Of a stretch of DNA of 19,882 bases, positions 957 to 19,528 are shown piece after piece. The notes beneath the pieces were generated by a model, which saw only the letters and a program-made list of their open reading frames with translations, ran no database searches and was not told where the DNA came from. The translations under genes were made by a program, and so were the position numbers. Source of the stretch: an uncultured Ruminococcus sp. (GTDB taxonomy: Bacteria > Bacillota > Clostridia > Oscillospirales > Ruminococcaceae). The stretch lies in NCBI GenBank assembly GCA_947175005.1, contig CAMWLD010000006.1, positions 1 through 19,882 on the forward strand, given 5' to 3'. The stretch's first letter is position 1, and every line of letters begins with the position of its first letter.

Positions 957-990
957 CTCTAACCTCTTACCTCTCACATCTAACCTCTTA
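957..990 (-). repeat. Heptamer array, copy 1 (alr stop)
   Basis: Read on the minus strand, the alr stop TAA runs straight into four seven-base units and a partial fifth: GAGGTTA, then GATGTGA, GAGGTAA and GAGGTTA. The same unit order recurs at 8207-8240 with single-base differences. A 13-bp AT palindrome (GAATTTAAAATTC, 945-957) touches its far end. Confidence 0.85.
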
Positions 991-2184
991 ATAATACTCT
1001 ACCACTGCCGTTATCTGCCCGCCTCTGCGGATAACACGGGGTATCCTTTTGGATATGCCGCAGACGGTCTCATATCCGATAGTGCCGTACATTGCGGCAA
1101 GCTCGTCGGCGGTTACGGTTTCCTCCCCGTCGCTGCCTATGAGGGTGACCGTTGTCCCCTCTTTCACATTGTCGATACCGCTTACGTCCGCCATAAGCTG
1201 ATCCATGCAGATACGTCCTATTATAGGGGCTTTTTTGCCGTTTATCAGAACATATCCTCTGCCCGATATCCCCCTTGCGTAGCCGTCGGCATAGCCTATG
1301 GGAACAGTGGCGGCGGTTATGTTGCTCTGCGCACAGTATGTGCGTCCGTAGCTTACAAAGTCCCCCGCTTTCAGCTGCTTGACATAGGACACGGCGGCTT
1401 TAAGCTCCATAACGGGCTTTAGCTCGACGGGCATTTCCAGCGAAATATCGGGCTTTAATCCGTAGAGCATTATTCCCAGCCTGTAAAGGGTACTGCGGCG
1501 GTCATAGCAAAACGCCCCTCCCGCACTGTTAAGGCAATGGGTATGGCGCAGGGCAACGCCCATTTCCCGTGCTTTATCGCATACCTTGAAAAAGCGGTCG
1601 GTTTGCGCAGCAGTATAGGCACGGTCGTCGGGGTCAATGCTGTCGGCGGAGGCGTAATGGGTAAATGCGCCGTCCAAAACAACGCCGCCAAGTTCGGAGA
1701 TACGCACAAGCGCCTCTGCAGCTGCATTTATGCCGTCATCGTCAGCCCTTATGCCTATCCTGCCCATGCCTGTATCCACGGCAGCATGAACCTTTACCCG
1801 AACCCCGGCCCGAGCCGCCTCCGCCGACAGACGGGCGGCATATTCGTCGGAAACGCAGGCGCAGATAATATCATTCTCCGCCAGCTCCGCCGCAAGCTCG
1901 GGGGGGGTATATCCCAAAATGAGTATCTCACCTTTAACCCCGTATTTACGCAGCTTCTGGGCTTCTCTGATGTTTGAGACAGCAAAAAATCCCACTCCCA
2001 GGCTTTCCAGAAAAGGAGCTATATTTTCATCGTCATGGCCGTAGGCGTTTGCCTTTACCACGCAGGCAATCTGCGTAACATCGGTATTTATAAGGGTTTT
2101 GGCGGCATTCAGATTGTACTCGAGCTTGTCAAGGTCGATCTCTGCCCATGCCCTTCGTAAAAATTCGGTTTTTGTGGTATTCAT
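988..2184 (-). CDS. alr: Alanine racemase
   Basis: PLP-dependent enzyme interconverting L- and D-alanine, which supplies D-Ala for peptidoglycan; cytoplasmic. The 398-residue length is normal for the family. Lys44 in VVKANAYGH is the PLP-binding lysine, and the N-terminal barrel continues through DTGMGRIGI (Arg142). Arg235 (YRLGIMLYG) is placed to contact the pyridine nitrogen. Tyr298 in VPIGYADGY is the second catalytic base, and GRICMDQ near 323-329 completes the active-site entrance. The start ATG has a good SD (AAGGAG, 8 bases upstream). The gene stands alone: a divergent SLOG gene lies upstream and a shared terminator downstream. Its leader would contain an AATTAAT heptamer array, and its stop codon is the first codon of a GAGGYWR array. 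Assignment is secure from motifs; a separate catabolic role cannot be ruled out. Confidence 0.96.
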   Translation of the reverse strand: MNTTKTEFLRRAWAEIDLDKLEYNLNAAKTLINTDVTQIACVVKANAYGHDDENIAPFLESLGVGFFAVSNIREAQKLRKYGVKGEILILGYTPPELAAELAENDIICACVSDEYAARLSAEAARAGVRVKVHAAVDTGMGRIGIRADDDGINAAAEALVRISELGGVVLDGAFTHYASADSIDPDDRAYTAAQTDRFFKVCDKAREMGVALRHTHCLNSAGGAFCYDRRSTLYRLGIMLYGLKPDISLEMPVELKPVMELKAAVSYVKQLKAGDFVSYGRTYCAQSNITAATVPIGYADGYARGISGRGYVLINGKKAPIIGRICMDQLMADVSGIDNVKEGTTVTLIGSDGEETVTADELAAMYGTIGYETVCGISKRIPRVIRRGGQITAVVEYY

Positions 2185-2205
2185 TAAAAATGCTCCTTGA
2201 TAGAA

Positions 2206-2318
2206 AATTAATAATTAATAATTAATAATTAATAATGATTTAAAAACATTATTAAGCATTTTGCAACAAATATTTTCGCTTGTTTAATTATTAATCATTA
2301 ATTATTAATTATTAATTA
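2206..2318. repeat. Inverted pair of AATTAAT heptamer arrays
   Basis: The left array has four exact AATTAAT units at 2206-2233 plus a variant (AATGATT, 2234-2240). The right array has five TTAATTA units at 2284-2318, one of which is TTAATCA. They are inverted with respect to each other, so about 34 bases can fold back with few mismatches around a 43-base loop. The arrays fill the divergent alr/SLOG intergenic region and would lie in or next to both promoters. Confidence 0.85.
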
Positions 2319-2327
2319 ACCAAATAG

Positions 2328-2336
2328 TGGTATAAT
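2328..2336 (+). promoter_or_regulatory. Extended -10 promoter of the SLOG gene
   Basis: TGG followed by a perfect TATAAT (2331-2336) matches the extended -10 consensus TGnTATAAT. No convincing -35 is present because the upstream sequence is the heptamer array. Transcription would start near 2343, leaving a leader of about 25 bases with a GAGGGGA SD at 2356-2362. Confidence 0.7.
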
Positions 2337-2367
2337 AATTTCAGAAAAATGATTCGAGGGGAACAAT

Positions 2368-3333
2368 ATGGAAATGGATAACAGCATTATCTTGCGCAGA
2401 GAAACAACAGCCTGTTTTACGGGACACCGCCCTCAAAAGCTGCCCGACGGCGGAAGCAGGAATTCTACTGCGACCCGTGTTATAAAAAGTATGCTTTATG
2501 CCTGTGTCAGCGAGGCTGTCAATGACGGCTACGATACTTTTATTACCGGTATGCAGCGTGGCATTGACCTGTGGGCGGGAGAGATCGTATTGTCTCTTAT
2601 GGCCGGGAGCAATCTGCGTCTCATCTGTGCAATGCCCTATGAGGGCTTCGGCAAGGAATTCACGGGTGTTGACAAATGGACATTCGAGCGGATACTGGAG
2701 GCTGCCTCGGCAAAGGTCACTCTTTGTCCCCGTTACACCAAGGATTGTATGGCTTTGCGCAATAAATTCATGGTGGACAATTCCTCCCGTCTGATAGCCG
2801 TGGCAGACGATCTGAAAAGCGGTACGGGACAGACCCTGCGGTACGCACGCAGCTCAAATCTGGATATACGTTTGATAGACCTGGGCGAATTATTCCGCAA
2901 AAATAATACCGACACCCGTGATTTTGCTGACGCTGAAGCAAATAAACAAAGCTATGATGTGATAACCTTTGACGGCATGGAAGAGGATATGTCCGTTGCT
3001 TCCCGCAATGAAAATCCACTGCCGGTCGAAACGGATAAAAGTGAACTTGCAGACCTGTTTGGAGAACCGATCTCCGAGCTTGAAATTTTGGGAAATTCAT
3101 TTTCAAAAATGCCCGACAAAACGTCTGCCAAGCCAAGTGCCGAAAAATCGGAAATGTCACACGCGGAAAAGTCTGTCGGAAAATCATCGGTGCTGCCACG
3201 CAGCAGAACTGCCGAAACATTTTCGGAAAAAATCCCCGAAAATGCGAACCGCAGGCAGGAGACCCCTGCGGCAGACCTTGAGATCGACGAGCGCTACAGC
3301 GCCGCAAACGACCCGACGCTTACCTTGCTGTAA
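2368..3333 (+). CDS. SLOG-family protein (YpsA/DUF1273-like) with long disordered tail
   Basis: Residues 14-174 form a Rossmann-like SLOG domain. The family start (CFTGHRPQKLP, 16-26), the helix segment ITGMQRGIDLWAGEI (59-73) and the later MVDNSSRLIAV (135-145) followed by a GTGQTLRYA glycine turn (152-160) all match the YpsA/DUF1273 pattern. SLOG domains bind nucleotides or nucleotide-derived ligands; YpsA of Bacillus has been linked to cell division and stress, and the role here is unknown. Usual family members end near residue 180-190. This one continues for about 140 residues rich in Ser, Lys, Glu and Pro with no recognisable fold, ending in two leucines. The start ATG 2368 is followed by ATG 2374; both fit the SD. 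It is transcribed alone from an extended -10 promoter. Confidence 0.82.
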   Translation: MEMDNSIILRRETTACFTGHRPQKLPDGGSRNSTATRVIKSMLYACVSEAVNDGYDTFITGMQRGIDLWAGEIVLSLMAGSNLRLICAMPYEGFGKEFTGVDKWTFERILEAASAKVTLCPRYTKDCMALRNKFMVDNSSRLIAVADDLKSGTGQTLRYARSSNLDIRLIDLGELFRKNNTDTRDFADAEANKQSYDVITFDGMEEDMSVASRNENPLPVETDKSELADLFGEPISELEILGNSFSKMPDKTSAKPSAEKSEMSHAEKSVGKSSVLPRSRTAETFSEKIPENANRRQETPAADLEIDERYSAANDPTLTLL

Positions 3334-3341
3334 GCTGTAAA

Positions 3342-3365
3342 GCGCTGTGCAGTGCGCAAGTTTTT
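3342..3365 (+). terminator. Weak possible terminator after SLOG gene
   Basis: A short GCGC/GCGC stem (342-345 with 354-357 of this kilobase) is followed by AAGTTTTT. A competing five-base pairing CTTGC/GCAAG (3324-3328 with 3356-3360) ends right at the T-run. Either could terminate, but neither stem is strong. Confidence 0.35.
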
Positions 3366-3554
3366 GTCTGACTTCAAGTCCAATTTAATGTCGTTTACTA
3401 TAATTATAATCCACAAAAAGGAAAATTGCAACCGTCATAATAGATAAATATGCGGGAAAAATATCTTATAAATTTTTGCTTGATAAATTGCATAGTGTAA
3501 TATTGCAGCCGTGTATTTGCTGTAGGGCAGCGGCAGTGCACTTGCAATCAAGGC

Positions 3555-3581
3555 GTTTGCAAGCAATATGTTTGCAAGCAA
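3555..3581 (+). repeat. Tandem 12-mer upstream of glgP promoter
   Basis: GTTTGCAAGCAA occurs at 3555-3566 and again at 3570-3581, separated by TAT. Each copy contains the palindrome TTGCAA, and the outer CGTTTGC and GCAAACG can pair. The pair lies about 100 bases upstream of the best glgP promoter, where regulator sites are possible. No regulator is recognised. The rest of 3366-3655 shows no gene. Confidence 0.55.
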
Positions 3582-3659
3582 ACGGCTCGGAATTGTTGAC
3601 AAATCGGCCGATGCTTGCCAAAGGCTGCCAAAATTTCAATATTTTGTATAATATGCCTA

Positions 3660-3688
3660 TTGAAAAATTCGTCAAAATGGTGTATAAT
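3660..3688 (+). promoter_or_regulatory. Candidate glgP promoter
   Basis: TTGAAA (3660-3665) and TATAAT (3683-3688) are separated by 17 bases, close to the ideal vegetative promoter. A second TATAAT at 3647-3652 with CTGCCA 16 bases upstream could be an alternative. The predicted leader is about 125 bases long, holds no clear terminator or known riboswitch, and ends in AAGGGG before the coding region. Confidence 0.7.
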
Positions 3689-3821
3689 ATTTTGTAAGGT
3701 TTTTTGTAAATATTTTTAGCAAAGGTTATCATTACGGTAACATTTGCCGGGGAACTGTCGGACGGTGTCTTTTTAAAGGCGGCGGACGGCAAGTCCCACA
3801 AATTTCAAAAGCAAAGGGGAA

Positions 3822-6224
3822 ATGAATGTGTCATCCGTAAATAAAGAAGAATTTGAGGAAAAGCTGCGTTCGGAATTGCAGACCGAATTCAACGTAACAC
3901 CCGTGGACGCCTCGGATAATCAGATCTACAAGGCGCTTTCGGCTGTTGTCGTTAAGCAGCTGCGTGCTAAAAGAAGAAAATTCGTGAACCAGGTACACTC
4001 TGCGGGAAAGAAAGAGATCTACTATCTTTCCATGGAATTCCTTATGGGAAGATCTCTCAAAAGCAGCCTTTACAACCTGGAGCTTAACACCGTTGTTGAG
4101 GAAGTCCTCAAGAAATGGGACGTAAATATCGAGCGCATTTATGATTATGAAAGCGACGCAGCCCTCGGAAACGGCGGTCTCGGCAGACTTGCCGCCTGCT
4201 ATCTGGACGGTCTTGCCACTGACGGCTACCCTGCAATGGGTTACTCCATATGCTATGAGTACGGCATATTCAAGCAGCATCTGGATGAGGGCTGGCAGAC
4301 GGAGGAGCCCGATAACTGGCTTCCCGGCGGAAGTTCATGGCTCGTGCCCAAAACCGACAGTGCCATTGAGGTGAATTTCGACGGCGAGCTTCAGGAATAC
4401 TGGGACAATCAGTATCACCAGGTGACTTATAAGAATTACAATACGGTTGTGGCTGTGCCCTTTGATATGTATGTTCCCGGCTACGGCAGCAACGGCGTTT
4501 CGGTGCTCAGACTGTGGCAGGCTAAGGTGCCCTCCTTTGATATGAATATGTTCAATCAGGGCGATTATGCCAAGGCGCTGGGTCAGAATACCATTGCCCA
4601 GTCCATTTCCAAGGTGCTTTATCCCAATGATAATCACCTGGAGGGCAAGAGCCTTAGATACCGTCAGCAGTATTTCCTCTGTGCGGCTTCCGTTGGCGAT
4701 ATTGTAAACCGCCATATGTCCGTTTACGGCACTCTGGACAATCTTCACGAAAAGGTTGCCATTCATATCAACGACACTCACCCCACCCTTGCTATCCCCG
4801 AGCTTATGCGCATTCTGCTTGACGACTGCGGCTACAGCTGGGACAAGAGCTGGTATATAGTAACCAACACCTTTGCCTACACCAACCACACGGTAATGGC
4901 TGAGGCACTGGAAAAATGGGACGTTAATCTTGTCCGTCAGATAACTCCGAGAATTTATGATATTATCTGCGAGATAAACCGCCGTTACTGCGAGGAAGTC
5001 AAGGAGCGCACAGGGGACGACAACAAGGTTTCCAGAATGTCCATTATTCAGAACAATCAGATACACATGGCGCTGCTTTGCGTATGCGCTTCTCACTGTG
5101 TAAACGGCGTTTCCAAGCTCCATTCGGAGATTATCAAGGAAGACGTTTTCGCAAACGAATACAGCTACACTCCTCACAAGTTCCAGAACGTTACCAACGG
5201 TATTGCCTACAGGCGCTGGCTTTTGCAGTCCAACCCCGGGCTTACAAAGCTGCTTGAGGAGACCATTGGTTCGGATTTCAAGCACAATGCATGGGATTTG
5301 GCAAAATTTGCAAAGTTCGACACCGACAAGAAGGTGCTTGACAAGCTGGCTAAGATAAAGGCTGAAAACAAGGCAAGATTTGCAAAGTATGTCAAGTCCA
5401 ACTTTGGCGTTGAGCTTAACACCGACGCTATCTTTGACGTTCAAGTAAAGCGTCTCCACGAATACAAGAGGCAGAACCTTAACGCGCTTAATATTATTGC
5501 CGAATACAACGCCCTGCTGGAAAATCCCGATATGGATTTTGTGCCCAAGACCTATATTTTCGCTGCAAAAGCAGCTCCCGGGTACTATCTTGCAAAGCAG
5601 ATAATCAAGCTTATCTGGGCGCTGGGCGAGGAGATCCGCAAGAACAAGGAAATAAGCAAGAAGCTTCAGGTATTTTTCCTGGAGGATTACAGAGTTACCA
5701 TGTCCGAGTTGTTAATGCCCGCAGCGGAGGTTTCCGAGCAGATTTCTTTGGCAGGCACAGAAGCTTCGGGTACGGGCAACATGAAGCTTATGCTCAATGG
5801 TGCGCTGACTCTTGGTACTCTTGACGGCGCAAACGTGGAGATAAGGGAGCAAGTAGGGCCTAACAACATCTTCATTTTCGGTATGACCACCGAGGAAGTG
5901 CTGGCAAAGAAGGCGCAGGGCTACCGTCCCGAGCATTATGTAGAGAACAACGAGGTAATCCGCAAGGCTCTTGACAGGATGTACAGCGGTATCAACGGCT
6001 GCTCCTTTGAAGAGGTTGCAAATGCGCTGAAGTTCAAGGATCCTTACATGGTTCTTGCTGATTTTGACGCATACCAGTCCGCTCAACAGTATGTTTCCGA
6101 GTGCTACAAGGATAAGTACAAGTGGAACACTATGTCCCTTAACAATATTGCCAATGCGGGTATTTTCTCCGCTGACAGGGCTGTTGACGAGTATGCCAAG
6201 AATATCTGGAAGCTTAGCAAGTAA
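3822..6224 (+). CDS. glgP: Glycogen/alpha-glucan phosphorylase
   Basis: Cleaves alpha-1,4-glucan with phosphate to release glucose-1-phosphate; a GT35 family enzyme acting in the cytoplasm on stored glycogen or imported maltodextrin. The 800 residues match family length. Visible landmarks are YYLSMEFLMGRSL near the N-terminus, ALGNGGLGRLAACYLDGLA in the glucan/phosphate site, HINDTHPTLAIPELMR, NVTNGIAYRRWL, VKRLHEYKRQ and the PLP site EASGTGNMKLMLNG, in which Lys655 is the PLP-binding residue. The start is uncertain. ATG 3822 has only two bases between it and AAGGGG (3814-3819), whereas in-frame GTG 3828 has eight, so the protein may begin two codons later. The gene probably reads on through a small membrane-peptide gene to the terminator at 6490. 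Family is certain; substrate preference (glycogen, starch or maltodextrin) cannot be told. Confidence 0.97.
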   Translation: MNVSSVNKEEFEEKLRSELQTEFNVTPVDASDNQIYKALSAVVVKQLRAKRRKFVNQVHSAGKKEIYYLSMEFLMGRSLKSSLYNLELNTVVEEVLKKWDVNIERIYDYESDAALGNGGLGRLAACYLDGLATDGYPAMGYSICYEYGIFKQHLDEGWQTEEPDNWLPGGSSWLVPKTDSAIEVNFDGELQEYWDNQYHQVTYKNYNTVVAVPFDMYVPGYGSNGVSVLRLWQAKVPSFDMNMFNQGDYAKALGQNTIAQSISKVLYPNDNHLEGKSLRYRQQYFLCAASVGDIVNRHMSVYGTLDNLHEKVAIHINDTHPTLAIPELMRILLDDCGYSWDKSWYIVTNTFAYTNHTVMAEALEKWDVNLVRQITPRIYDIICEINRRYCEEVKERTGDDNKVSRMSIIQNNQIHMALLCVCASHCVNGVSKLHSEIIKEDVFANEYSYTPHKFQNVTNGIAYRRWLLQSNPGLTKLLEETIGSDFKHNAWDLAKFAKFDTDKKVLDKLAKIKAENKARFAKYVKSNFGVELNTDAIFDVQVKRLHEYKRQNLNALNIIAEYNALLENPDMDFVPKTYIFAAKAAPGYYLAKQIIKLIWALGEEIRKNKEISKKLQVFFLEDYRVTMSELLMPAAEVSEQISLAGTEASGTGNMKLMLNGALTLGTLDGANVEIREQVGPNNIFIFGMTTEEVLAKKAQGYRPEHYVENNEVIRKALDRMYSGINGCSFEEVANALKFKDPYMVLADFDAYQSAQQYVSECYKDKYKWNTMSLNNIANAGIFSADRAVDEYAKNIWKLSK

Positions 6225-6235
6225 GCTTTTATTAC

Positions 6236-6304
6236 GGAAACAAGCCGCTTACAGCAACAAATGATGAATCGTCTTAAAAGCGTAATTTGCGGCTTGATGT
6301 TTCC
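6236..6304 (+). other. Intercistronic hairpin after glgP
   Basis: GGAAACAAGCCGC (6236-6248) pairs with 6289-6304 over 13 bp, interrupted by a three-base bulge. No T-run follows, so it is unlikely to terminate. It may stabilise the 3' end of glgP mRNA or set the ratio to the downstream small gene. Confidence 0.5.
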
Positions 6305-6331
6305 GCGAATATGAAAAGGTGGAAAGGCATT

Positions 6332-6466
6332 ATGGATAAAAAAACCGAAAGTATAAGTTTCGGCGTATGTATTGTGTTAATTGTTTTTGGTATGATCTTT
6401 TCTGCATATGCCGGTACTCAAATAGGCTCGGATATAGGCGAATTTATTTACAATATTATGCACTAA
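6332..6466 (+). CDS. Small single-helix membrane protein (44 aa)
   Basis: A 44-residue ORF with a charged start (MDKKTES), one hydrophobic helix near residues 9-27 and a short tail with two acidic residues (IGSDIGEFIY). It starts at ATG 6332, nine bases after AGGTGG and four after AAAGG; the upstream in-frame ATG 6311 has no SD. It sits between glgP and the terminator at 6490, so it is probably the last cistron of the glgP transcript. I do not recognise the family. Coding status rests on the SD, the clean membrane-helix pattern and the terminator directly behind it. Confidence 0.6.
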   Translation: MDKKTESISFGVCIVLIVFGMIFSAYAGTQIGSDIGEFIYNIMH

Positions 6467-6489
6467 AAGCTATTAAGACTATAGCATTT

Positions 6490-6523: not shown

Positions 6524-6932
6524 CTTTTCGTTTGTCAGCTTTAATGGGAGAGTGACATCTTCCGTCACATAGTGCGCCCTTACGGGCGGCAGCATGAAAC
6601 GCGTGACATTCGTCACACGTTTCTATGCTGCTGCGCCGCCCGACGTGGGTTTGTTCTAAGCTATGAGACTGCAAGTATAACGTTCATTCACTGTAACCCT
6701 TTTCCGAACGTCGGGCGGCGGTTTTCTAGGGGTTATCTTGAAGCGCTTTTGTTTGTCAGCGGCTGTTAGAGGGGGCGCTGCCCCCCGACCCCCGCAAGAG
6801 CGCTGCCCTTGACCCGCCAAAGGCTCCGCCCTTGGAACCCGAGTGAAGTGTGTGCTCTTGTTTATGTTAGTTTGCTTGCTTACTGTTTTGTGCAATTTGA
6901 CGGAACCCGCTCTAACCTCTTACCTCTAACCT
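6524..6932. repeat. Gene-free structured GC-rich repeat region
   Basis: About 400 bases between two convergent genes hold no credible ORF but dense secondary structure. A large imperfect hairpin spans 6584-6641; its core pairs GAAACG and GTGAC with their complements around ATTC. A 13-bp perfect inverted repeat (634-646 with 708-720 of this kilobase) shares its left arm with that hairpin, so the two folds exclude each other. GTTTGTCAGC occurs at 6530-6539 and 6751-6760, flanking most of the element. From 6770 to 6840 a run of small GC hairpins follows (for example GGGGGC-GCT-GCCCCC), of a style common in clostridial intergenic repeats. The right end is the heptamer array at the phosphofructokinase stop. 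Confidence 0.65.
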
Positions 6933-6935
6933 CTA
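6910..6935 (-). repeat. Heptamer array, copy 2 (phosphofructokinase stop)
   Basis: On the minus strand the stop TAG of the phosphofructokinase gene overlaps the array: TA followed by units GAGGTTA, GAGGTAA, GAGGTTA and a partial GAG. This is copy 1 without its GATGTGA unit. Confidence 0.85.
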
Positions 6936-8192
6936 CTGATTCAATCTAAAATGCACCGGGATTCCGTTTCTGTACTCCGTCTGCACCTCTCCTTGAATAA
7001 GGGGCAGAAAATAGCTCATAGCGTCCATGGTAACGTCGCAAAGGTCACGGGTTATCCATTTTTCGGGAAAGAATTTCTCCGAATTTGCTGCCAGCTCCAC
7101 ATCAAAGGGTATGATCTCCACCCGATAAGGCTCGCTGCTTATGCGGCGGAAACCCATCATCTTACCGCTTTCTCCGCCAAGTGCACAGTGCACTGCCGCT
7201 GCGCCTATCTTTTCCGCTTCCTCAATATCCGTTAAAGAGGCAATATGCGCCCCGCACCGCTGCATGACGTTAAGCTCCACCGAACGCACCTTACAGCCGA
7301 ACTTGTCGCGGCAAATTTTCTCCAGATATTTTGCCACTCCCGAATTATCCGTATGCCCGAAAGCGTCCGCCCCAAGCTTCACATAATCCCTGTCACGGGG
7401 GACTATCCCCTCGGAAACCGCTATAATGACTGCTCGATAGCGTTTCATCATACGGGAAACGTCCTCTAAAAATTTTTCCGTATCAAACCCCTCGGGACAG
7501 CTTTCGGGAAGATAAATAAGGTGAGGCGCAGGCTCGCCGTTCGCCCGCAGCACGCTTGTGGAGGCGGTCAGCCACCCTGCATTCCTGCCCATGATCTCCA
7601 CAATGGTAATGGACTGAATGCTGTAAACACGGCTGTCGCGGATAATTTCCTGCAAGGTCGTGGCAACATATTTTGCCGCCGAGCCGAAGCCGGGCGTATG
7701 GTCGGTGCAGGGCAGGTCGTTGTCAATGGTTTTCGGCACGCCGATCACCTTGATATCCTTGCCCACCGCCTTGATATAGCGGTTCAGCTTCATAACCGTA
7801 TCCATGGAATCGTTGCCGCCTATGTAAAAGAACGCACCTATCCCGTATTCCTCAAAGGTGTTTATGATATTCATATATTCCGACTCGGTCACGCTGTCGG
7901 CAGGGTCGTACTCCGCCAACTTGTATCGGCAGGAGCCGAGCACCGTGGAGGGCGTTTTTTTCAGCAGCTCAATATCCGACTCCGATGTGAGAATGCTGTC
8001 CAGCGGCACAAGGTTGCCGCCGATAACTCCCTCGATGCCGTTCACAGCGCCGTATATCCGCTCAATATCGGGATTGTCCCTTGCCGCTCTGAACACTCCC
8101 GCCAGTGAGGAGTTGATCGCCGCAGTAGGCCCGCCCGACTGGGCAACCGCTATGTTCATTCGTTTGCTCATATTTTCGGATAATGTTGACAT
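6933..8192 (-). CDS. pfp: Phosphofructokinase, pyrophosphate-dependent type
   Basis: Phosphorylates fructose-6-phosphate to the 1,6-bisphosphate in glycolysis; cytoplasmic. The 419-residue protein shows the PFK fold: SGGPTAAINSSL (19-30), GGNDSMDT (125-132), PKTIDND (153-159), PGFGSA (167-172) and MGRNAGW (201-207). Asp157 is the expected catalytic base. Two positions indicate pyrophosphate rather than ATP as donor: Asp128 where ATP enzymes have Gly, and Lys154 where they have Gly before TIDND. The first motif is GGND rather than the more usual GGDD, a mild variation. The start at 8192 has a well-spaced SD (AAGGCGG). It is monocistronic, with a heptamer array on each side. Its leader holds a promoter-like palindrome and a cre-like site. 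Donor specificity is inferred from residues, not measured. Confidence 0.9.
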   Translation of the reverse strand: MSTLSENMSKRMNIAVAQSGGPTAAINSSLAGVFRAARDNPDIERIYGAVNGIEGVIGGNLVPLDSILTSESDIELLKKTPSTVLGSCRYKLAEYDPADSVTESEYMNIINTFEEYGIGAFFYIGGNDSMDTVMKLNRYIKAVGKDIKVIGVPKTIDNDLPCTDHTPGFGSAAKYVATTLQEIIRDSRVYSIQSITIVEIMGRNAGWLTASTSVLRANGEPAPHLIYLPESCPEGFDTEKFLEDVSRMMKRYRAVIIAVSEGIVPRDRDYVKLGADAFGHTDNSGVAKYLEKICRDKFGCKVRSVELNVMQRCGAHIASLTDIEEAEKIGAAAVHCALGGESGKMMGFRRISSEPYRVEIIPFDVELAANSEKFFPEKWITRDLCDVTMDAMSYFLPLIQGEVQTEYRNGIPVHFRLNQ

Positions 8193-8206: not shown

Positions 8207-8240
8207 TTAGAGATTAGATGTTAGAGGCAAGAGGTTAGAT
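8207..8240 (+). repeat. Heptamer array, copy 3 (phosphofructokinase leader)
   Basis: Units GAGATTA, GATGTTA, GAGGCAA and GAGGTTA at 8210-8237, then GATATTT. The unit order parallels copy 1, and the right end resembles copy 4. Here the purine-rich strand is opposite to the gene, and the array overlaps the region just upstream of its SD. Confidence 0.8.
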
Positions 8241-10735: not shown

Positions 10736-10772
10736 AAAAAGCAAGCCGCAGAAAAACCTTGGCTTGCTTTTT
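10736..10772 (-). terminator. Terminator of the cwlJ-gerQ pair
   Basis: A perfect 12-bp stem (10736-10747 with 10761-10772), with an A-run on one side and a T-run on the other, works in either direction. GCAAACGC (10773-10780) and GCGTTTGC (10810-10817) form a further inverted repeat between it and the stop codon. Confidence 0.88.
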
Positions 10773-10822
10773 GCAAACGCTTTGCAAATGCTTTGCGTTG
10801 TGAAAATTTGCGTTTGCGAGGC

Positions 10823-11352: not shown

Positions 11353-11790
11353 CTATGTGTCCGCATACGCGTCGGTGGGATTGTAGAAACAGTGATCGCC
11401 GATACGTATGACAAACCTGCCCACCCTTGAAGGGAAATACTGGCGGCATTCGGTAGTAAAGGGATTGAAATACCAAAGTGCAAAACCAAGGTTGGTAAGC
11501 CTGTTGCCCGCTATGGCCCAGGAGGCAATGTCGTAGTGCACCTGATCGGGGCGCATATTGTAAATGGTCTGAGTGTTGTACTTGCCCCCCACCGTTTCCC
11601 TTACGCAGTCGAACTGCCCCGGCTGGTAGACAATCGCTCTTATGGTATGTTCAAGCCTGCCGTATTCCCCGTAGGTGATGTGGACGCGGTTCATGACCAC
11701 GCACGCCACCGCTTTCATGCCCGTTTCGCCCTCGCCCCCCGCCTCGCACTGGACTATTCGGGCAAGTATGTCAATGTCGGAATAAGCCAT
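11353..11790 (-). CDS. cwlJ: Cell wall hydrolase, SleB/CwlJ type
   Basis: A 145-residue Hydrolase_2 domain protein that would cleave cortex or cell-wall peptidoglycan. Glu16 in CEAGGEGETGMKAVACVVMN is the expected catalytic glutamate. Further family blocks are GQFDCV (58-63), ALWYFNP (104-110) and IGDHCFY (130-136). There is no signal peptide and no extra binding domain. This compact form and length match CwlJ (about 142 residues in Bacillus) rather than the secreted SleB. The SD (GAGGTGAT) is near perfect. The next gene downstream resembles gerQ, forming a two-gene unit ending at the 10736 terminator. A heptamer array lies just upstream of the SD; I could not find a clear sporulation-type promoter. 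SleL or a vegetative hydrolase are less likely alternatives. Confidence 0.85.
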   Translation of the reverse strand: MAYSDIDILARIVQCEAGGEGETGMKAVACVVMNRVHITYGEYGRLEHTIRAIVYQPGQFDCVRETVGGKYNTQTIYNMRPDQVHYDIASWAIAGNRLTNLGFALWYFNPFTTECRQYFPSRVGRFVIRIGDHCFYNPTDAYADT

Positions 11791-11806: not shown

Positions 11807-11844
11807 TAGAGGCAAGAGATTAAGAGGCAAGAGGCAAGATATTT
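11807..11844 (+). repeat. Heptamer array, copy 4 (cwlJ leader)
   Basis: GAGGCAA at 11809-11815, an eight-base variant GAGATTAA, then two further GAGGCAA units, ending in GATATTT as copy 3 does. It lies 17 bases upstream of the cwlJ start in the same relative position and orientation as copy 3. Confidence 0.8.
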
Positions 11845-13863: not shown

Positions 13864-14975
13864 TGCTTGCCGAACTTCTCGGAGATCTCACCCATAAGCT
13901 CGGGAATCTTTATGCTTTGAGGGCAGTGCTCTGTGCAAACACCGCAGGAAACGCAGCCCGAGGGCTTTCCCTCGCTTTTGATATGCTCAAATTCCCATGA
14001 AGCCCAGTCGCCGTCGGTCTTGATGTGGTTGTAGACCCGCAGAAATTCGGGAATGTTTATCTGTGACGGGCAGCTGTCCGTGCAGTACCGACAGGCAGTG
14101 CAGGGAATGACAAGCTTGTTGCGGAACACGTCGCAGGCGGTAAACAGCAGCCTTTCCTCTTCTTCGGTCAGGGAAGCATCGTCCGCAAAGGTGTTCAGAT
14201 TATCCTCCAACTGCGACATGTCGGACATTCCGCTGAGTATCATCATAACATTGTCCAGACCTTTCAGCCACCTGAACGCCCATGAAGCAATGCTCCTATC
14301 GGGGTAACGTTTTTTCAGCAGTTCGTTTGCCTCGGGGGAAAGCTCCGCCAGTCTGCCGCCCCGCACAGGCTCCATTACGACCACGGGAATGCCCATACTC
14401 TTCAGCAGCTCATACTGCTCCTTTGTATTGCCGTATTTCCAGTCATAGTAATTGATCTGAAGCTGTGCAAAATCCCACTTGCGGTATTCTGCAAATTCTT
14501 TTAAGGTCTTAGTGGAGCAGTGAGCGGAAAAACCTAAATATTTTACCTTGCCCAGCGCTTTTTGTTCCTCGAAATATTTTACCGAGCCGCCGTCAATATA
14601 TTTCTTTGCCGAATCGTCCCCCACTGAATGGATAAGGTAAAAATCCACATAGTCGGTTTTCAGTTTCTTCAGCTGCTCTGCAAAAACCGCCTTATAATCG
14701 GGGTTTGCGGCAATAAAGAACTTTGTCGCCAGATAAAAGCTTTCCCTGGGGTAGCGGCTCACAAGAGCGTCTCCCAAAAAGCTTTCCGACTTGCCGCTGT
14801 GGTAAACATATGCCGTATCGTAGTAGTTGACCCCTGCCGCCATTGCCTTGTCGATAATAGCAGAAGCACGTTCGAAATCAATGTCGCCGTCGCCCTTTCC
14901 CGGTATCAGAGGCAGCCGCATATTGCCCATGCCCAGCCCCGACAGCTTGATGTTTTGGAAATTTTTCATCATCAT
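13860..14975 (-). CDS. Aldo/keto reductase with C-terminal 2x[4Fe-4S] domain
   Basis: A 371-residue oxidoreductase of the COG1453 type, cytoplasmic. Residues 8-285 form the aldo/keto reductase barrel, with the catalytic tetrad visible as Asp53, Tyr58 (DTAYVYHSGKSE), Lys85 (ATKF) and His116 (YLIHS). Residues 292-351 hold two ferredoxin-type cluster motifs: C292-x2-C295-x2-C298-x3-C302 and C341-x2-C344-x2-C347-x3-C351. Fusion of the barrel to ferredoxin clusters is common in anaerobes and suggests coupling to ferredoxin; the substrate is unknown. The frame is open for 21 more codons upstream, but ATG 14975 is chosen because GGGAGGAT lies five bases before it and the protein then begins at the normal family position. 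It is first of a likely unit with the unknown and LRR genes, as no terminator separates them. Confidence 0.9.
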   Translation of the reverse strand: MMMKNFQNIKLSGLGMGNMRLPLIPGKGDGDIDFERASAIIDKAMAAGVNYYDTAYVYHSGKSESFLGDALVSRYPRESFYLATKFFIAANPDYKAVFAEQLKKLKTDYVDFYLIHSVGDDSAKKYIDGGSVKYFEEQKALGKVKYLGFSAHCSTKTLKEFAEYRKWDFAQLQINYYDWKYGNTKEQYELLKSMGIPVVVMEPVRGGRLAELSPEANELLKKRYPDRSIASWAFRWLKGLDNVMMILSGMSDMSQLEDNLNTFADDASLTEEEERLLFTACDVFRNKLVIPCTACRYCTDSCPSQINIPEFLRVYNHIKTDGDWASWEFEHIKSEGKPSGCVSCGVCTEHCPQSIKIPELMGEISEKFGKQ

Positions 14976-15005
14976 AAAATGATCCTCCCTTTCTCGGACA
15001 GATTC

Positions 15006-15022
15006 TGCCAAAGTCATTGGCA
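15006..15022. promoter_or_regulatory. Operator-like palindrome upstream of aldo/keto reductase
   Basis: TGCCAA and TTGGCA form a perfect six-base inverted repeat around five bases, about 30 bases upstream of the start codon. It could be an operator or a leader hairpin. No regulator is encoded nearby. Confidence 0.4.
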
Positions 15023-15057
15023 AAACCGATCCTAACATACTTTTTTATAAAAACCGT

Positions 15058-15675
15058 TCATTCAAAGTAACCCCTGAACCGCTTATCTGTCGTACAAACC
15101 AGATAAACACCGCCAAATCCTACAATTCCCAAAAAAATATTGGGGATATAAAATGCACATTTCAGCTTGAAAAAATAATCCGAAGCGTCCTTAAGCTCAT
15201 ATTCCGTATTGCTGCTTTTTTCCGTTAATACCAGCTTTTCATAACCGAATTTATTTTTATATTGCAAAATATAGTTATCGTTTTCCTTTTTCATTCCCCT
15301 CAGTTTCCGTGTAAAACTGTCTTGTCTGACGTGATCGCCCTTTGATATTTCGGGTTTGTTGGTTTTTGATATTTCATTACCGTAAAAATCACATTCGATA
15401 TAATCGTAAGAGCCTCTTTTGATATAGAGCCTGTCATTGGAATTTACATGTTCGATCAAATATACTTTATGGGAAAAGTCTTTGCAGTCGGCAAGTTCTT
15501 CATCGTCGAAAAAATACAGTTTCTTGTATTGATAATTTATAATATATTTTCCGTCACCGGATAATGCAAATTCTACAACATTATCACCTGTAATAAAACC
15601 AGCAAAAAGCAAAGTTTCCCACAAAATTATACAAATAACAGCGAATATCTTGAATGTTTTTTTGCTGACTTTCAT
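15058..15675 (-). CDS. Unknown protein with two membrane helices
   Basis: A 205-residue protein of unknown family. A basic N-terminus (MKVSKKTFK) leads into a membrane helix at about 9-29, and a second helix lies at 172-194, followed by a short basic tail. The segment between them (31-170) would lie outside the membrane; it is rich in Tyr, Lys and Asp, with beta-propeller-like phrases such as FALSGDGKYIINYQYKKLYFF. ATG 15675 is chosen over TTG 15696 because the AAGGGAG SD overlaps the TTG and suits the ATG. It lies between the GNAT gene and the aldo/keto reductase on the same strand with short gaps. No function is suggested by motif. Confidence 0.6.
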   Translation of the reverse strand: MKVSKKTFKIFAVICIILWETLLFAGFITGDNVVEFALSGDGKYIINYQYKKLYFFDDEELADCKDFSHKVYLIEHVNSNDRLYIKRGSYDYIECDFYGNEISKTNKPEISKGDHVRQDSFTRKLRGMKKENDNYILQYKNKFGYEKLVLTEKSSNTEYELKDASDYFFKLKCAFYIPNIFLGIVGFGGVYLVCTTDKRFRGYFE

Positions 15676-15813
15676 ATTTATATCATCTCCCTTCAATGCA
15701 TTTAATAAGGAAGCTTGATATTTCTTTTAAAATATCATACTCATTCCATGATTTGGAAATTTTTTATAATCATAATATAAATCCTTCTTTTCGGATAGAT
15801 ACTACCCAAGTTA

Positions 15814-16338
15814 CTAATATACTTTTTTGTATATCAGCATTCCATTGCCGTAAGGGTCATCTTCCGCTCCCGATTCTTCCCTGACAAATTCATAGCCGTT
15901 TTTTTCAAGAACTCTCACCGATGCATTATTCCCGTGCATGACCCGACCGTATAAAATATTTATTCCGAAGGTTTCGGCAATATAATTTGTCATTGCCCCT
16001 AAAAGCTCGGTAGCATAGCCCTTTCCGCTATACCTTTTACAAATCCCGTAGCCTATTTCCACCTCATTCGGATTCCCCAGAGCTTCATTTACACCCGTAT
16101 CGCCTATCAATTCGCCCGTACTCTTTAATTCAACAGCCAGCACATACGGCAAATGCTTGTTCTTTACACAGTCAATGTAGAAATCGACCGCTCCCCTTGC
16201 TTCTTCAATATCTGCATAGCTTTCATTGGGGATCCACTTTTTTACATCTTCCTCCAAGTGGTTTTTATACAGATCTATAGCGTCGTCAGGCTCAAATTTT
16301 CTGATCTTCAAATGCTCTGTTTCAAATATGTACTCCAT
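15814..16338 (-). CDS. GNAT acetyltransferase, RimJ/RimL-like
   Basis: A 174-residue single-domain N-acetyltransferase (Acetyltransf_3 type) using acetyl-CoA. It opens with the family phrase TEHLKIRKFEPDDA (7-20). The acetyl-CoA pyrophosphate-binding motif is RYSGKGYATELL (102-113), preceded by the strand EVEIGYGI. The later NNASVRVLEKNGYEFV (137-152) is the usual Asn-x-x-S helix and following strand. The target may be a ribosomal protein, another protein N-terminus, or a small amine; sequence alone cannot tell. The start has a GGGGG-containing SD about seven bases upstream. The stop is followed by no clear terminator. Confidence 0.9.
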   Translation of the reverse strand: MEYIFETEHLKIRKFEPDDAIDLYKNHLEEDVKKWIPNESYADIEEARGAVDFYIDCVKNKHLPYVLAVELKSTGELIGDTGVNEALGNPNEVEIGYGICKRYSGKGYATELLGAMTNYIAETFGINILYGRVMHGNNASVRVLEKNGYEFVREESGAEDDPYGNGMLIYKKVY

Positions 16339-16350
16339 TTACTATCCCCC

Positions 16351-16435
16351 TGACAGAAGCAAGAATTCATGAAAAAAGAAATTTCATGATTTGCACGGCA
16401 TAATGCAGGTTTTTTCTTGCCTCCTGCCTCTGTCA
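16351..16435. repeat. Palindromic element with heptamer copy 5 (FNT stop)
   Basis: The ends form an imperfect inverted repeat: TGACAG...GCAAGAA on the left (16351-16365) and TTCTTGC (16414-16420) with TCTGTCA (16429-16435) on the right. Inside is a second stem, TCATGAAA with TTTCATGA (16367-16374 with 16382-16389). On the minus strand the FNT stop TGA is followed by CA and then units GAGGCAG and GAGGCAA, so this is the heptamer family carried in a hairpin. Confidence 0.6.
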
Positions 16436-17056
16436 ACTTTTAGCAAAACCCTTGCGCACAAACGGAATAAACATTCCACCCAGCGCATTTCCCGCCGACA
16501 TGACCAGCAGATAGCCGAAAGCCTTTGCCGACCAGCAAGCGCCCACCGAGAAATAGAACATATTCGCAACGCAGTGTTCATATCCGCTTAATATAAACAC
16601 CATAACAGGCAGGAAAACCGCCAGCATTTTTCCCACGGGGTTTTCGATCTTCTTGAACCCGTCCGCCGCAATGAACATAAGCATTCCGCAGAAAAATGCC
16701 AGTATCAGAATGCTGACAAGATTATCCGCAAGCTTTGTTTCGCACAGTCCCGCAGCCTTTTCGCTTATCCCGCTTATGCGTGTGCAGAGTATCATGCAGC
16801 CCATAATAAACGTTCCCGCAAGATTTCCCGCCCAGATTATCAGCAGGTCAAGCAGATATGAGGGCTTGTTTTCCACAGCATAGCCCACTTTGCCCGTGAA
16901 CAGGTTGAAACCGAACGAAAGTATGACGAAAAGTCCCGTGCCGAAAAGGAACGACCCTACATACTTGCTGTCGCAGGAAAGGTAGACAACTCCCCCTATC
17001 CCGATAGCAAAGCCCGTCAGCACCGCTCTAAGAAAAATATCAATAAATCTTTTCAT
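16433..17056 (-). CDS. Formate/nitrite transporter (FNT) family channel, short form
   Basis: A 207-residue membrane protein of the FNT family, which moves small monovalent anions such as formate, nitrite or hydrosulfide. About six helices are visible. Diagnostic blocks are GYEHCVANMFYFS (158-170), with the central channel His161, and GNALGGMF near the C-terminus (189-196). The protein is shorter than the usual 250-285 residues, mainly in its loops and termini. ATG 17056 is chosen over GTG 17065 because GTGGGGTG precedes the ATG at suitable distance and overlaps the GTG. It lies about 80 bases downstream of the ABC ATPase with no terminator between, so read-through is possible. Formate is the most likely substrate in a fermentative anaerobe, but this is inference. 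Confidence 0.85.
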   Translation of the reverse strand: MKRFIDIFLRAVLTGFAIGIGGVVYLSCDSKYVGSFLFGTGLFVILSFGFNLFTGKVGYAVENKPSYLLDLLIIWAGNLAGTFIMGCMILCTRISGISEKAAGLCETKLADNLVSILILAFFCGMLMFIAADGFKKIENPVGKMLAVFLPVMVFILSGYEHCVANMFYFSVGACWSAKAFGYLLVMSAGNALGGMFIPFVRKGFAKS

Positions 17057-17137
17057 TATGTACACCCCACAGGTTAATTTATAATTATTTTATATTCTCA
17101 AATTTTTATATATGTCCGAAAAACTGTGATTCATTGG

Positions 17138-17767
17138 CTAAAGCTGCACGATCTCGCCCTTGAGCAGTTCACAGTCCTCCTTATGGTGAGTGACACCTAT
17201 AAACAGGCGGTCTCCAAGGCTTTCACGAATGACCTTTCCCGTTGCAAGACGGTTTTCGGGGTCTATACCCGTGAAAGGTTCGTCCATGAGCACCAGTCCC
17301 GAGGGAACGCACAAAGCCCGTACTATAGCCGTCCGCCGCTTCATTCCTCCGGAAAATCCCCTGACGGGGCGGGTCATATCCTCTTCGGGTATTCCCGTTG
17401 CCACGAGCATTTGACGGATATGCTGCCGTTCATTCCTGCGGCGTTCGCTGCGTTTTTCGCTGCGAGAATCGCAATGGCGCTCACTATGGGAGTTCAGAGC
17501 AAGCAGGCAGTTATCCTCGGGGGAAAGCTCCTCGAAAAGTCTGTCCTCCTGAAACACCATGGAAACTCCCCCGGGAGGGATATCCTCAATGCTCCCCTCA
17601 AAGCTTTCCAGCCCTGCAATTATCCGCAGCAGGGTGGTCTTTCCGCAGCCCGACTCCCCCATTATCCACACAGCGCCGCTGTTCGGCAGTTCAAGACTGT
17701 AATTATCCAAAACCCTTTTTTCTCCCGAATCCGTGGGATAGGTTTTGGTGATATTTTTAAGCTTCAT
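17138..17767 (-). CDS. ABC transporter ATPase, nitrate/sulfonate-type
   Basis: A 209-residue ABC nucleotide-binding protein. Walker A is GESGCGKTT (37-45), the Q-loop glutamine is Gln73 (VFQED), the signature is FSGGMKRR (138-145), Walker B is LVLMDEP (158-164) with Glu163, and the switch histidine lies in VTHH (192-195). The ATP-binding machinery is therefore complete. The signature has Met where Gln is usual. The helical domain contains a strongly basic insert (about 95-115, RSEKRSERRRNER). Sequence style is closest to SsuB/TauB-type importers. No permease or binding protein is present beside it. Its ATG overlaps the flippase stop in an ATGA, so the two are translationally coupled. Partner unknown. 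Confidence 0.88.
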   Translation of the reverse strand: MKLKNITKTYPTDSGEKRVLDNYSLELPNSGAVWIMGESGCGKTTLLRIIAGLESFEGSIEDIPPGGVSMVFQEDRLFEELSPEDNCLLALNSHSERHCDSRSEKRSERRRNERQHIRQMLVATGIPEEDMTRPVRGFSGGMKRRTAIVRALCVPSGLVLMDEPFTGIDPENRLATGKVIRESLGDRLFIGVTHHKEDCELLKGEIVQL

Positions 17768-19263
17768 CGCCGTTCACCGTAGTCAGAATGGGCATGGGCA
17801 TTGCCGACATTGCCCGCATTGCCCATATTGCCCTGTGCATTTTGAGGCTGTCTGACAGTTCCCCGTGAAAGTATCTTCCGCAGGGTCTTTATCACAGCGT
17901 CCATATTGTAAATAAGGCTTACCGCAAAGCAAAGTATCACCCACAATACCCACAGCTTGGGAGCTTTTGCGATTAGAACGCACATAAACACGGTTATCCC
18001 CGTGTTGACTATCAGCCGCAGGTAATCCACCTTAAAGAAAATATACTGCCTTGCGTCAAACAAGCGCACCGCAAAGCAAGCGAAATAAGCCGCCGCCGTG
18101 GCAATGGCTGCGCCGTACATTCCGTGCTTGGGGATAAGGACAATATTTAATATAATGTTCACAACTGCCGCAATAAGGGCGGTAACACAGGAATTGACCG
18201 ACTTTTTTTTGGTAGTGTAGACCGATGAAAGGAACTGGCAGAAGCACTGGAAAAGCATTGCCGCCACCAATATCGGCACAACGGGGTATACGGTAAAATA
18301 ATCCTTGCCGTTTTCGCCGTTGCCCGTAAGTACAAAGGTCAGGGGCTTTATAAGCATAATAAGCCCTGCCGCCGCTATGAACATAAGGGAGGTATACGCC
18401 CCGAAAACATTTTCGTAAAATTTCCCTAAAGTGCGGCTGTTGCGCTCTTCAATGGAGGACATCTGCCATGCCTGGTAAAATATGGTTGTGACCAGCATCA
18501 GCAGGGTGGGCAGCTTATATCCCGAGGAATATATCCCGCTTTCGCCGCTTCCGACCATATATGTCATGAACCACCTGTCCGAAGAAGATGTGACCCACCA
18601 AAGCATATATGTGGGAATGAGAGGGGCTGCAAAACACAGCATTTCCCATGCGGTCTTCCTGTCGAAAAATTTCATATGCAGGCACTGCCCCAGCCTTGCA
18701 ATGACCGTAAGCAGGGCAAGAGATATGGCGTCGGAAATGATAAAGCCCATAACATAGCCCTTTACGCCCATATGCAGCCCTGCCACCATAATAAGATTTA
18801 CGATAAGCTGCACGAACACGGCAAAAACGCCGTCCGCAAGATAAAGCTTTATAGCGCCCTGCGCCCGCACGAACTGGGACGCAATTTGTCTGAAGCAGCT
18901 GAAATAACAGTAGACATACAGCAGAAAGCTGTAGCCCGCAAACACGCTGATATTGGCAACCAAGGGCGTAAACAGCATAAAAATGCTCATGCCGCCCAGC
19001 ACGAAAAGGCAAGCGCAGGTGTAGATCTTCCGTTTGTCGTATTCCTTTGCCATGCCGAAGCGGATAACAGCGTCCGCCATGGAGAATGTGACCATGGGCA
19101 CCAGCATATTGACCGTGCTGTAAATAAGCTCGGCGATGTTGAATTCTTCCTTGGGAATGTATCTGAGGTACAGCCCCGTAAGCAGAAATCCCACAAGCTT
19201 CGACAGCAGCTGACCCACGCCGAAGATAAGGGTATTTCCCATTAGCTTTTGATATTTATTCAT
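17764..19263 (-). CDS. Polysaccharide flippase (MOP superfamily)
   Basis: A 499-residue membrane protein with about 12-14 hydrophobic helices. It begins with the family opening (NKYQKLMGNTLIFGVGQL) and is most like Wzx-type flippases that move lipid-linked sugars across the membrane. The frame is open for 19 more codons upstream, but ATG 19263 is chosen because AGGGAG lies nine bases before it and the family begins there. The cytoplasmic tail ends in a short repeat of Gly-Asn-x, encoded by 9-bp tandem units at about 17791-17834, then HAHSDYGERR. Glycosyltransferase genes that usually accompany such flippases are not in the window. The stop overlaps the ABC ATPase start by four bases. Confidence 0.9.
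   Translation of the reverse strand: MNKYQKLMGNTLIFGVGQLLSKLVGFLLTGLYLRYIPKEEFNIAELIYSTVNMLVPMVTFSMADAVIRFGMAKEYDKRKIYTCACLFVLGGMSIFMLFTPLVANISVFAGYSFLLYVYCYFSCFRQIASQFVRAQGAIKLYLADGVFAVFVQLIVNLIMVAGLHMGVKGYVMGFIISDAISLALLTVIARLGQCLHMKFFDRKTAWEMLCFAAPLIPTYMLWWVTSSSDRWFMTYMVGSGESGIYSSGYKLPTLLMLVTTIFYQAWQMSSIEERNSRTLGKFYENVFGAYTSLMFIAAAGLIMLIKPLTFVLTGNGENGKDYFTVYPVVPILVAAMLFQCFCQFLSSVYTTKKKSVNSCVTALIAAVVNIILNIVLIPKHGMYGAAIATAAAYFACFAVRLFDARQYIFFKVDYLRLIVNTGITVFMCVLIAKAPKLWVLWVILCFAVSLIYNMDAVIKTLRKILSRGTVRQPQNAQGNMGNAGNVGNAHAHSDYGERR
17791..17834 (-). repeat. In-frame 9-bp minisatellite in flippase tail
   Basis: Nine-base units beginning ATTGCC (plus strand) repeat about four times and encode Gly-Asn-x on the minus strand. 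Unit length is a multiple of three, so copy-number changes would keep the frame and the ATGA overlap with the ABC ATPase. Confidence 0.65.
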
Positions 19264-19367
19264 TTTGTTTTTCTCCCTGCTGATTGTGGCAATTTGCCTT
19301 TGCCTGCAATTTGCCTGCACATTGCTGCTTAAAGCACATAGGTGCGTTCATAGGTATATATATTTTA

Positions 19368-19376
19368 ATTATAGCA
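19368..19376 (-). promoter_or_regulatory. Flippase extended -10 promoter
   Basis: On the minus strand TGC precedes TATAAT (19368-19373), an extended -10. The -35 region (TTCCAT) is weak. The leader is about 100 bases and contains the repeated word GGCAAATTGC. Confidence 0.65.
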
Positions 19377-19474
19377 TACTCTTCCCGAAAATGGAAGTGG
19401 ATTGACGAATTTTTTATAAATTGTTAATATTTTGCACGCTGTGTTTATTTCGGCAAACCGTTTAATATGATAAA

Positions 19475-19528
19475 AGGCAAGAGGCAGGACAAAAAATCCT
19501 GCTTCCTGCCTCTTGCCTCCTGCCTCTA
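19475..19528 (-). repeat. Heptamer array copy 6 forming a hairpin (BspA-like stop)
   Basis: On the minus strand the stop TAG begins the array: TA followed by units GAGGCAG, GAGGCAA, GAGGCAG and GAAGCAG. Beyond it, 19475-19489 is the exact complement of 19504-19518 over 15 bp, so part of the array exists in both orientations and folds into a strong hairpin with T-runs. It probably doubles as the gene's terminator. Confidence 0.8.

Follow-up and report, generated by a model that had tools for sequence, protein, structure and literature searches.

In cyanobacteria, the heptamers of the short tandemly repeated repetitive (STRR) sequences and the small dispersed repeats (SDR) are short, dispersed and heptamer-linked, and are thought to be mobile. 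The heptamers GGGAATC and GGGGA(C/T)T of Xanthomonas and Nostoc, in the excerpts of Rehm et al. 2015 (PMC4692102) that we draw on, lie near an open reading frame (ORF), antisense when upstream of it and sense when downstream; in Xanthomonas the mean distance is 28 nt to the 5' neighbour versus 160 nt to the other. According to the same excerpts, four units are preferred, convergent pairs occur, few arrays lie between divergent genes and a function was not found. The TAACTGA repeats of marine Beggiatoaceae, as far as the excerpted text of MacGregor 2015 (PMC4679880) goes, form 169 sets of 2-6 units, 36 of them split by related heptamers; they run mostly in the sense direction toward a start codon, the most numerous class stopping 1 nt short of it and usually without a ribosome-binding site, and toward stops in 12 of 170. 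Here we describe arrays of another heptamer, best written GA[A/G]G[C/T][A/T][A/G] (GARGYWR), six of which lie in the window, a stretch of 19,882 nt from contig 6 of G000, a fragmented assembly of Ruminococcus type (2.47 Mb in 394 contigs, 83% completeness). The rule by which they are placed beside genes is already known from Xanthomonas and Nostoc; what is new is the different unit and the family, within the Bacillota, that carries it. Among the literature matches listed, judged by title and abstract opening and with subscription literature thinly covered, none reports arrays of this kind in Ruminococcus or in the family to which it belongs.

We cautiously favour, as the somewhat probable reading, that small dispersed non-coding elements, similar to miniature inverted-repeat transposable elements (MITEs) or foldback elements, spread in several lineages of the family and inflated or replaced intergenic DNA, and that the arrays form their outer arms, which face the genes. 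Supported directly are the copying, the placement rule, the wider gaps, some inverted pairs, the patchy amplification in the family and the near-identical copies in another genus. Arrays of G000 were collected from 616 kb and then from 819 kb, about a third of the genome; G006 and G007 are relatives in the same genus, G136 and G330 belong to genus g118 of the same family, and the surveys covered 20 sampled genomes of the genus and 297 of the family. Copy number was controlled with reversed sequence or a reversed pattern, and closeness to gene edges with random placement within the same gaps (5000 rounds). Gene borders came from a simple in-house caller and start distances are approximate; phosphofructokinase (PFK), for example, was called at 8159, and the ORF with a Shine-Dalgarno sequence starts at 8192. 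The left end of an array is that of the array read in the GAGG orientation.

The six window arrays are real copies and not chance, because the tandem GAGGYWR pattern GAGGYWRGAGGYWR has 116 matches in the G000 genome (overlapping ones counted) and its reversed form none, and because the wider unit GARGYWR gives 84 arrays in 616 kb and none in the reversed sequence. The 819 kb hold 109 arrays against one in the control, and a profile search at 12 bits gives 176 sites, 170 of them intergenic, against two. Four heptads are the commonest array length (38 of 109 in G000, where 107 were countable, and 33 of 81 in G006). The arrays were seeded on two strict units, which partly explains the regularity of the two right-hand heptads; the GA that follows these heptads in 98% and 95%, and is itself followed by A/T-rich bases, is independent of the seeding. 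One heptad is frequently deviant (GATGTTA, GAGATTA, GAAGTTA), at times with an additional base. The window (at 957), L035 (at 16977) and L067 (at 5176) all carry the T-rich order GAGGTTA GATGTKA GAGGTAA GAGGTTA, which recurs slightly altered elsewhere, and genus g118 has nearly the same order, GAGGTTA GATGTAA GAGGTAA GAGGTAA. Given this recurrence at several loci and, closely, in another genus, the unit order seems to have been copied between loci, in agreement with the original prediction, which had noted the common unit order of arrays 1 and 3, including the GATGTGA/GATGTTA second unit, and had taken the two as copies of one element rather than products of independent slippage. The same recurrent order with its deviant unit, together with the orientation rule described below and the mode at four units, tells against ordinary microsatellite slippage at many independent sites. 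Whole-heptad differences between orthologous arrays do occur, and among the 35 gaps in the alignments of 38 arrays, 7 have a length of 7 or 14 nt; whole-unit change is not dominant in the divergence, and we consider slippage a very improbable origin.

An array turns its left end to a gene, either at the stop codon or beyond the Shine-Dalgarno sequence. In the first set, 78 of 84 arrays are intergenic with both neighbours, the left neighbour presenting its stop in 34 and its start in 44. Stop-side arrays lie at -1 to 4 nt from the stop codon in 15 of 34 cases, start-side arrays at 15-23 nt from the start, directly outside the Shine-Dalgarno sequence, in 18 of 44, and the nearest right-hand gene is never less than 27 nt away from any of the 78. 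When 7 of the 109 arrays are dropped (inside a gene, or with no neighbour or room), 56 of 102 left ends are within 12 nt of a permitted edge, for which random placement gives a mean of 12.1, a standard deviation of 3.0 and a maximum of 24; none of the 102 right ends is that close to an edge. The corresponding numbers in G006 are 39 of 78 left ends, with a null of 9.1, and one right end. Gaps between divergent genes seldom hold sites (start/start, 5 of 165 in 19.4 kb of G000 and 12 of 144 in G006) and gaps between convergent genes often do (29 of 165 in 8.1 kb of G000). Where a gap has both orientations, the sites point inward from both genes in 14 of 15 cases in G000 and in all 17 in G006, and an inverted partner lies within 350 nt of 19 of 96 arrays in G000 and 16 of 69 in G006 (both members of a pair counted), the reversed control giving one each.

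The link to gene ends claimed by the original prediction is therefore a strong one, and the enrichment at stop codons, looked for in a third of the genome, is present. The link is also wider than had been claimed, taking in either gene edge and some RNA genes, and the claim that it is unusual is not supported, the same rule having been reported in Rehm et al. 2015 (PMC4692102); the suggested likeness to known bacterial heptamer repeats is supported. What did not hold up is the idea that arrays have the role of supplying stop codons. For PFK it was rejected, since relatives that have no array there keep the stop codon at the same position; in addition, many arrays lie at starts.

Arrays are found at RNA genes as well. 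In G006 they lie at the 3' ends of tRNA-Tyr and tRNA-Pro (3 and -2 nt; 2 of the 16 tRNA and transfer-messenger RNA (tmRNA) genes in the examined sequence sets), and the array-chosen stretches of G136 and G330 add the 3' end of tmRNA, the 3' end of tRNA-Ser and the 5' end of tRNA-Tyr, each at most 5 nt from an array, for five cases in all at -2 to +5 nt. Translation is unlikely to be the reason for the placement, because the arrays adjoin tRNA and tmRNA genes too. The same finding bears on the proposal that the arrays are RNA-level signals, either controlling translation before starts or acting as terminators or mRNA stabilisers after stops. Such signals would agree with the way arrays abut Shine-Dalgarno sequences and stop codons and, by eye, some post-stop pairs form hairpins, several of which carry a T run (19475-19528 in the window; L040, L054, L058). 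However, the two contexts share a single DNA rule but have opposite RNA strands, and most arrays are without an inverted partner; we regard this proposal as quite improbable. As a separate observation, at about 8500-8970 of L045 an array directly follows a candidate RNase P RNA gene, identified by eye from the sequence.

The comparison with the described heptamers can now be made. As in the excerpts on Xanthomonas and Nostoc, the GARGYWR arrays prefer four units, follow an ORF-side strand rule, are scarce between divergent genes and form convergent pairs. They differ in the unit, in the host and in the near absence of GGG tracts (3 of 109 arrays in G000 and 3 of 81 in G006), and here arms of longer palindromic repeats, in another genus, and wider gaps are seen. 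GARGYWR arrays are not built on a GGG-tract unit of the G-quadruplex type, and with GGG tracts almost absent, G-quadruplex formation cannot explain the placement rule here. With the TAACTGA repeats, as excerpted, they share tandem heptamers that are mostly intergenic and beside start codons; their unit is not TAACTGA, and they occupy both stop and start contexts. A rule that operates in a family of the Bacillota with an almost GGG-free unit, and also at tRNA and tmRNA genes, argues against both quadruplexes and translation. It also ties heptamer arrays to palindromic repeats and wider gaps. The Xanthomonas and Nostoc cases came without a function or origin found.

The history of the arrays was followed in relatives. 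In the examined part of G006, 71 of the 109 G000 arrays have a match, 43 with both flanks alignable. Of these 43, an array is present in G006 in 30; the other 13 comprise one that is unalignable, three without a trace (by eye) and nine remnants. In the opposite direction, 45 of the 81 G006 arrays match G000, and 31 of the 35 two-sided ones have an array there. At PFK, eight other members of the genus have the same stop codon and no array at it, in G007 an array-like run lies about 24 nt beyond the stop, and the relative L076 has a single unit directly after it. Relatives do show array-free sites, and the original prediction, which was to be refuted if sister strains gave no sign of them, was not refuted in the third of the genome covered. 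Gaps that hold arrays are also wider. Of the syntenic gaps in G002, G009 and G018, three with 28-47 nt have array-bearing counterparts of 74, 284 and 159 nt in G000; two more, of 62-74 and 125-178 nt, measure 178 and 218 nt there, again with arrays. Over the comparable boundaries of four contigs, where gaps of L033 and L045 were compared gene by gene and the neighbour in the relative is sometimes another gene, array-bearing gaps have a median of 181 nt versus 63 nt in array-poor relatives and are more than 10 nt wider at 25 of 28 boundaries, while array-free gaps measure 81 versus 44.5 nt and are wider at 14 of 25 boundaries and smaller at 8. The p value of this contrast, 3e-4, is optimistic, with both boundaries of a gap counted. 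The G006 sequence in place of the L033 array pair resembled a TPP (thiamine pyrophosphate) riboswitch, so replacement of a riboswitch by the arrays was considered; it was dropped because Rfam gave no such hit in L207 at the gathering threshold.

The core of the unit is well kept. Between G000 and G006, positions G1, A2 and G4 differ at 14 of 306 sites, the degenerate positions at 60 of 408 and the aligned flank at 354 of 2529, in a count that takes units intact in either genome, and the conservation of the core is seen beside stops and beside starts alike. The core has been kept either by selection or by continued copying. Proteins that bind tandem heptads exist; at parS of pSM19035, tandem heptads are bound by a protein. 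The arrays could then be maintained cis-acting DNA sites for a protein of this kind at gene borders, serving, for example, the nucleoid, insulation or partition, and the conserved core is the main support for this. Continued copying or conversion between arrays would keep the core too, only 37 aligned arrays entered the counts, and both the patchiness of copy number, which ranges from 0 to 572 in a single genus, and the wider gaps resemble spread rather than a fixed function. We think a maintained site rather unlikely, if the most serious of the alternatives.

Copy number varies widely. Within the genus, G000, G006 and G007 are rich (116, 92 and 230 matches), G008, G003 and G016 moderate, and the others have 0-4. 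In the family, at least 20 matches are found in 15 of the 297 genomes, patchily in eight genera and with up to 572, and 50 of the 297 match another pattern of unit. Four sampled species of g118 have 572, 271, 6 and 0 matches, a spread that makes the origin of the arrays directly testable by strain comparison. Ten stretches of G136 and G330, picked for holding arrays, show nearby inverted array pairs in five, two of these being the same copy, and inverted repeats were found in four of the five g118 regions tested. The inverted arms in G136 are 62+62 and 48+48 nt long, and a 241-nt stretch has nested arms of 62 and 44 nt; folding predicted with RNA parameters gives energies down to -118 and -93 kcal/mol, and -24 to -40 kcal/mol for the shorter ones. 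A 381-nt composite query has five further placements in G136 at 92-96% identity and many shorter ones. Half-elements of about 105 nt turn up repeatedly; each has an outer array and an inner two-unit array, and the middle that separates the two is conserved. At one convergent gene pair, 213 nt separate the aligned ends of the genes in G136, where the gap has an array palindrome, and 103 nt in G330, where it has a terminator-like hairpin but no array. Another dispersed repeat of palindromic form was noticed in the same sequences (L367-L369 and positions 11-81 of the 381-nt query; its left part is about 70 nt), which flanks several heptad elements in G136, many copies ending where a heptad element begins.

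In the reading that we favour, an arm would consist mostly of four GA[A/G]G[C/T][A/T][A/G] heptads, one of them frequently deviant, with GA and A/T-rich bases at its end, and a full element would have two such arms, inverted relative to each other, with a short or nested middle between them. The elements would be moved in trans by a transposase or an enzyme of similar kind. Surviving copies would be those in spare DNA between stop codons, Shine-Dalgarno sequences or RNA-gene ends; confined to such dispensable DNA, they would abut a gene with their outer end. Most G000 copies have one recognisable arm, and these solo arrays would stem from loss or decay of the second arm, which is the weakest link of the reading. 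Some copies resemble terminator stems, perhaps as a side effect. The Correia, RUP and BOX MITEs, in the excerpts consulted (PMC10969869, PMC3049150), are small, non-coding, mainly intergenic and hairpin-forming, with nested insertions and variable copy number, BOX and RUP being over-represented between convergent genes. The elements with arrays resemble them in all the former traits, including insertion into one another, and differ in that the terminal arms are heptad arrays and most G000 copies are one-armed; inverted arms, as candidate terminal inverted repeats, are seen in 4 of 5 g118 regions and at 19 of 96 G000 arrays. Repetitive extragenic palindromic sequences and their paired forms (REP/REPIN), accompanied by REP-associated tyrosine transposases (RAYTs), are described in excerpts (PMC2817692, PMC3116915) as short extragenic high-copy repeats, single or in inverted pairs. 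The arrays share these features; unlike REP/REPIN, a single arm is not itself palindromic and Y1_Tnp was not found in G000, G006 or G007.

Several findings weigh against this reading. In G000, 77 of 96 arrays are without an inverted partner, and a right-hand body shared among copies is not evident among the best 60 of 203 matches that reach at least 25 nt past the array. In g118, five of the ten array-chosen stretches have lone or distant arrays with no nearby inverted pair, one of the five regions tested gave no inverted repeat, and the gene pair compared between G136 and G330 is a gap replacement, not a clean insertion with target-site duplication. Just 3 of the 43 arrays comparable in G006 lack any trace there, by gain or by loss, and none of the insertions in G000 could be dated. 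The conserved core is not expected of plain decaying relics, and in a looser G006 profile set 5 of 83 stop-facing right ends lie less than 20 nt from the stop codon. The search for a mover covered two families: the IS200-like transposase Y1_Tnp has no hit in G000 (83% complete), G006 and G007, and reverse transcriptase (RVT_1) none in G000 (likewise 83% complete) and G006. Finally, phages, plasmids and IMG/VR contigs gave no match at the sensitivity used.

Some candidates for missing parts of the element were set aside. The best 60 right-hand matches just mentioned proved to be other arrays, within-contig duplications, a 290-bp repeat, or weak. A second terminus at the other edge of single-array gaps in G000 is weak at best (a single facing unit at 9 of 75 ends versus 35 of 696 in array-free gaps), and no other common end is visible there by eye. 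A RAYT or a reverse transcriptase as the mover was dropped, neither being found in G000 or G006; in the genus, Y1_Tnp occurs in 2 of 20 genomes, G011 and G017. As candidate target-site duplications, TA flanks are seen at arrays, but TA also belongs to the unit.

The features of the window are listed in Table 1. All six arrays are present at the positions claimed, and the neighbours named earlier, alanine racemase (alr), PFK, a formate/nitrite transporter (FNT) and a BspA-type leucine-rich repeat (LRR) protein, are correct by Pfam. Four arrays do lie at minus-strand stops and the two others 5' of gene starts on the opposite strand. The outlines needed some changes, with one 8-nt step in array 4 and just two full units in array 5, and two inverted partners had been overlooked, an arm inside the outline given for array 6 and a single unit opposite array 5.

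Table 1. Heptamer arrays of the window and their inverted partners.
Feature	Position	Strand	Units	Placement	State in G006
Array 1	957..990	-	TAA + GAGGTTA GATGTGA GAGGTAA GAGGTTA GAG	left end flush (0 nt) with alr stop codon TAA	recognisable in place, under array-calling threshold
Array 2	6910..6935	-	TA + GAGGTTA GAGGTAA GAGGTTA GAG	first G common with PFK stop codon TAG	present
Array 3	8207..8240	+	TTA GAGATTA GATGTTA GAGGCAA GAGGTTA GAT	directly 5' of PFK Shine-Dalgarno, antisense to PFK	units changed, mostly still fitting consensus
Array 4	11807..11844	+	CTA GAGGCAA GAGATTA A GAGGCAA GAGGCAA GATATTT	directly 5' of cell-wall hydrolase Shine-Dalgarno (gene 11353-11790)	present; sequence to its right differs
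Single-unit inverted partner of array 5	16352..16368	+	GACAGAAGCAAGAATTC	opposite end of array 5's gap, near GNAT gene start	
Array 5	16417..16435	-	TGA CA GAGGCAG GAGGCAA	at FNT stop codon TGA, 2 nt	shorter by one unit
Inverted partner arm of array 6	19475..19489	+	AGGCAAGAGGCAGGA	15-bp perfect inverted match; hairpin possible after stop codon	
Array 6	19497..19528	-	TA + GAGGCAG GAGGCAA GAGGCAG GAAGCAG GA	overlaps BspA-like stop codon TAG	shorter by one heptad
Second heptamer family	2206..2236	+	(AATTAAT)n	left end 21 nt from alr start codon	
Second heptamer family, inverted copy	2284..2318	-		faces gene starting at 2368, 49 nt	

The second heptamer family of the window, AATTAAT, is present there in inverted order between divergent genes; the examined sequence of G000 and G006 has 26 arrays of it, many ending in TAATGA. 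Its unit is mirror-symmetric, which makes the reversed-sequence control invalid, and it was tested by the placement null. It obeys the same edge rule: the left ends of 16 of the 26 arrays lie no more than 12 nt from the edge (null 4.1, standard deviation 1.5), and the right ends of 2. It is conceivable, though we hold it to be an unlikely speculation, that unrelated heptamers (GARGYWR and AATTAAT here, GGGAATC and GGGGA(C/T)T elsewhere) under one DNA-level rule, the left end at a gene edge and the array pointing away from the gene, indicate one undescribed machinery that makes or inserts heptad-ended DNA, independently of base composition, G-quadruplexes and translation.

Other repeats share this DNA. 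Between glgP and PFK, positions 6561-6890 of the window hold a dispersed repeat of about 290 bp, with 15 alignments in the examined G000 sequence; this number takes in the window copy and several partial ones, and every one lies between genes. The repeat is also found in G006 and more weakly in G007 and G008, and several inverted pairs lie about 100 nt apart. The window further contains short tandem words, namely a 9-mer (CATTGCCCA) at 17799-17833, 11-mers at 10770-10796 and 19299-19325 (TTTGCAAACGC, TTTGCCTGCAA) and a 15-mer (TTGCAAGCAAGACGT) at 3542-3581.

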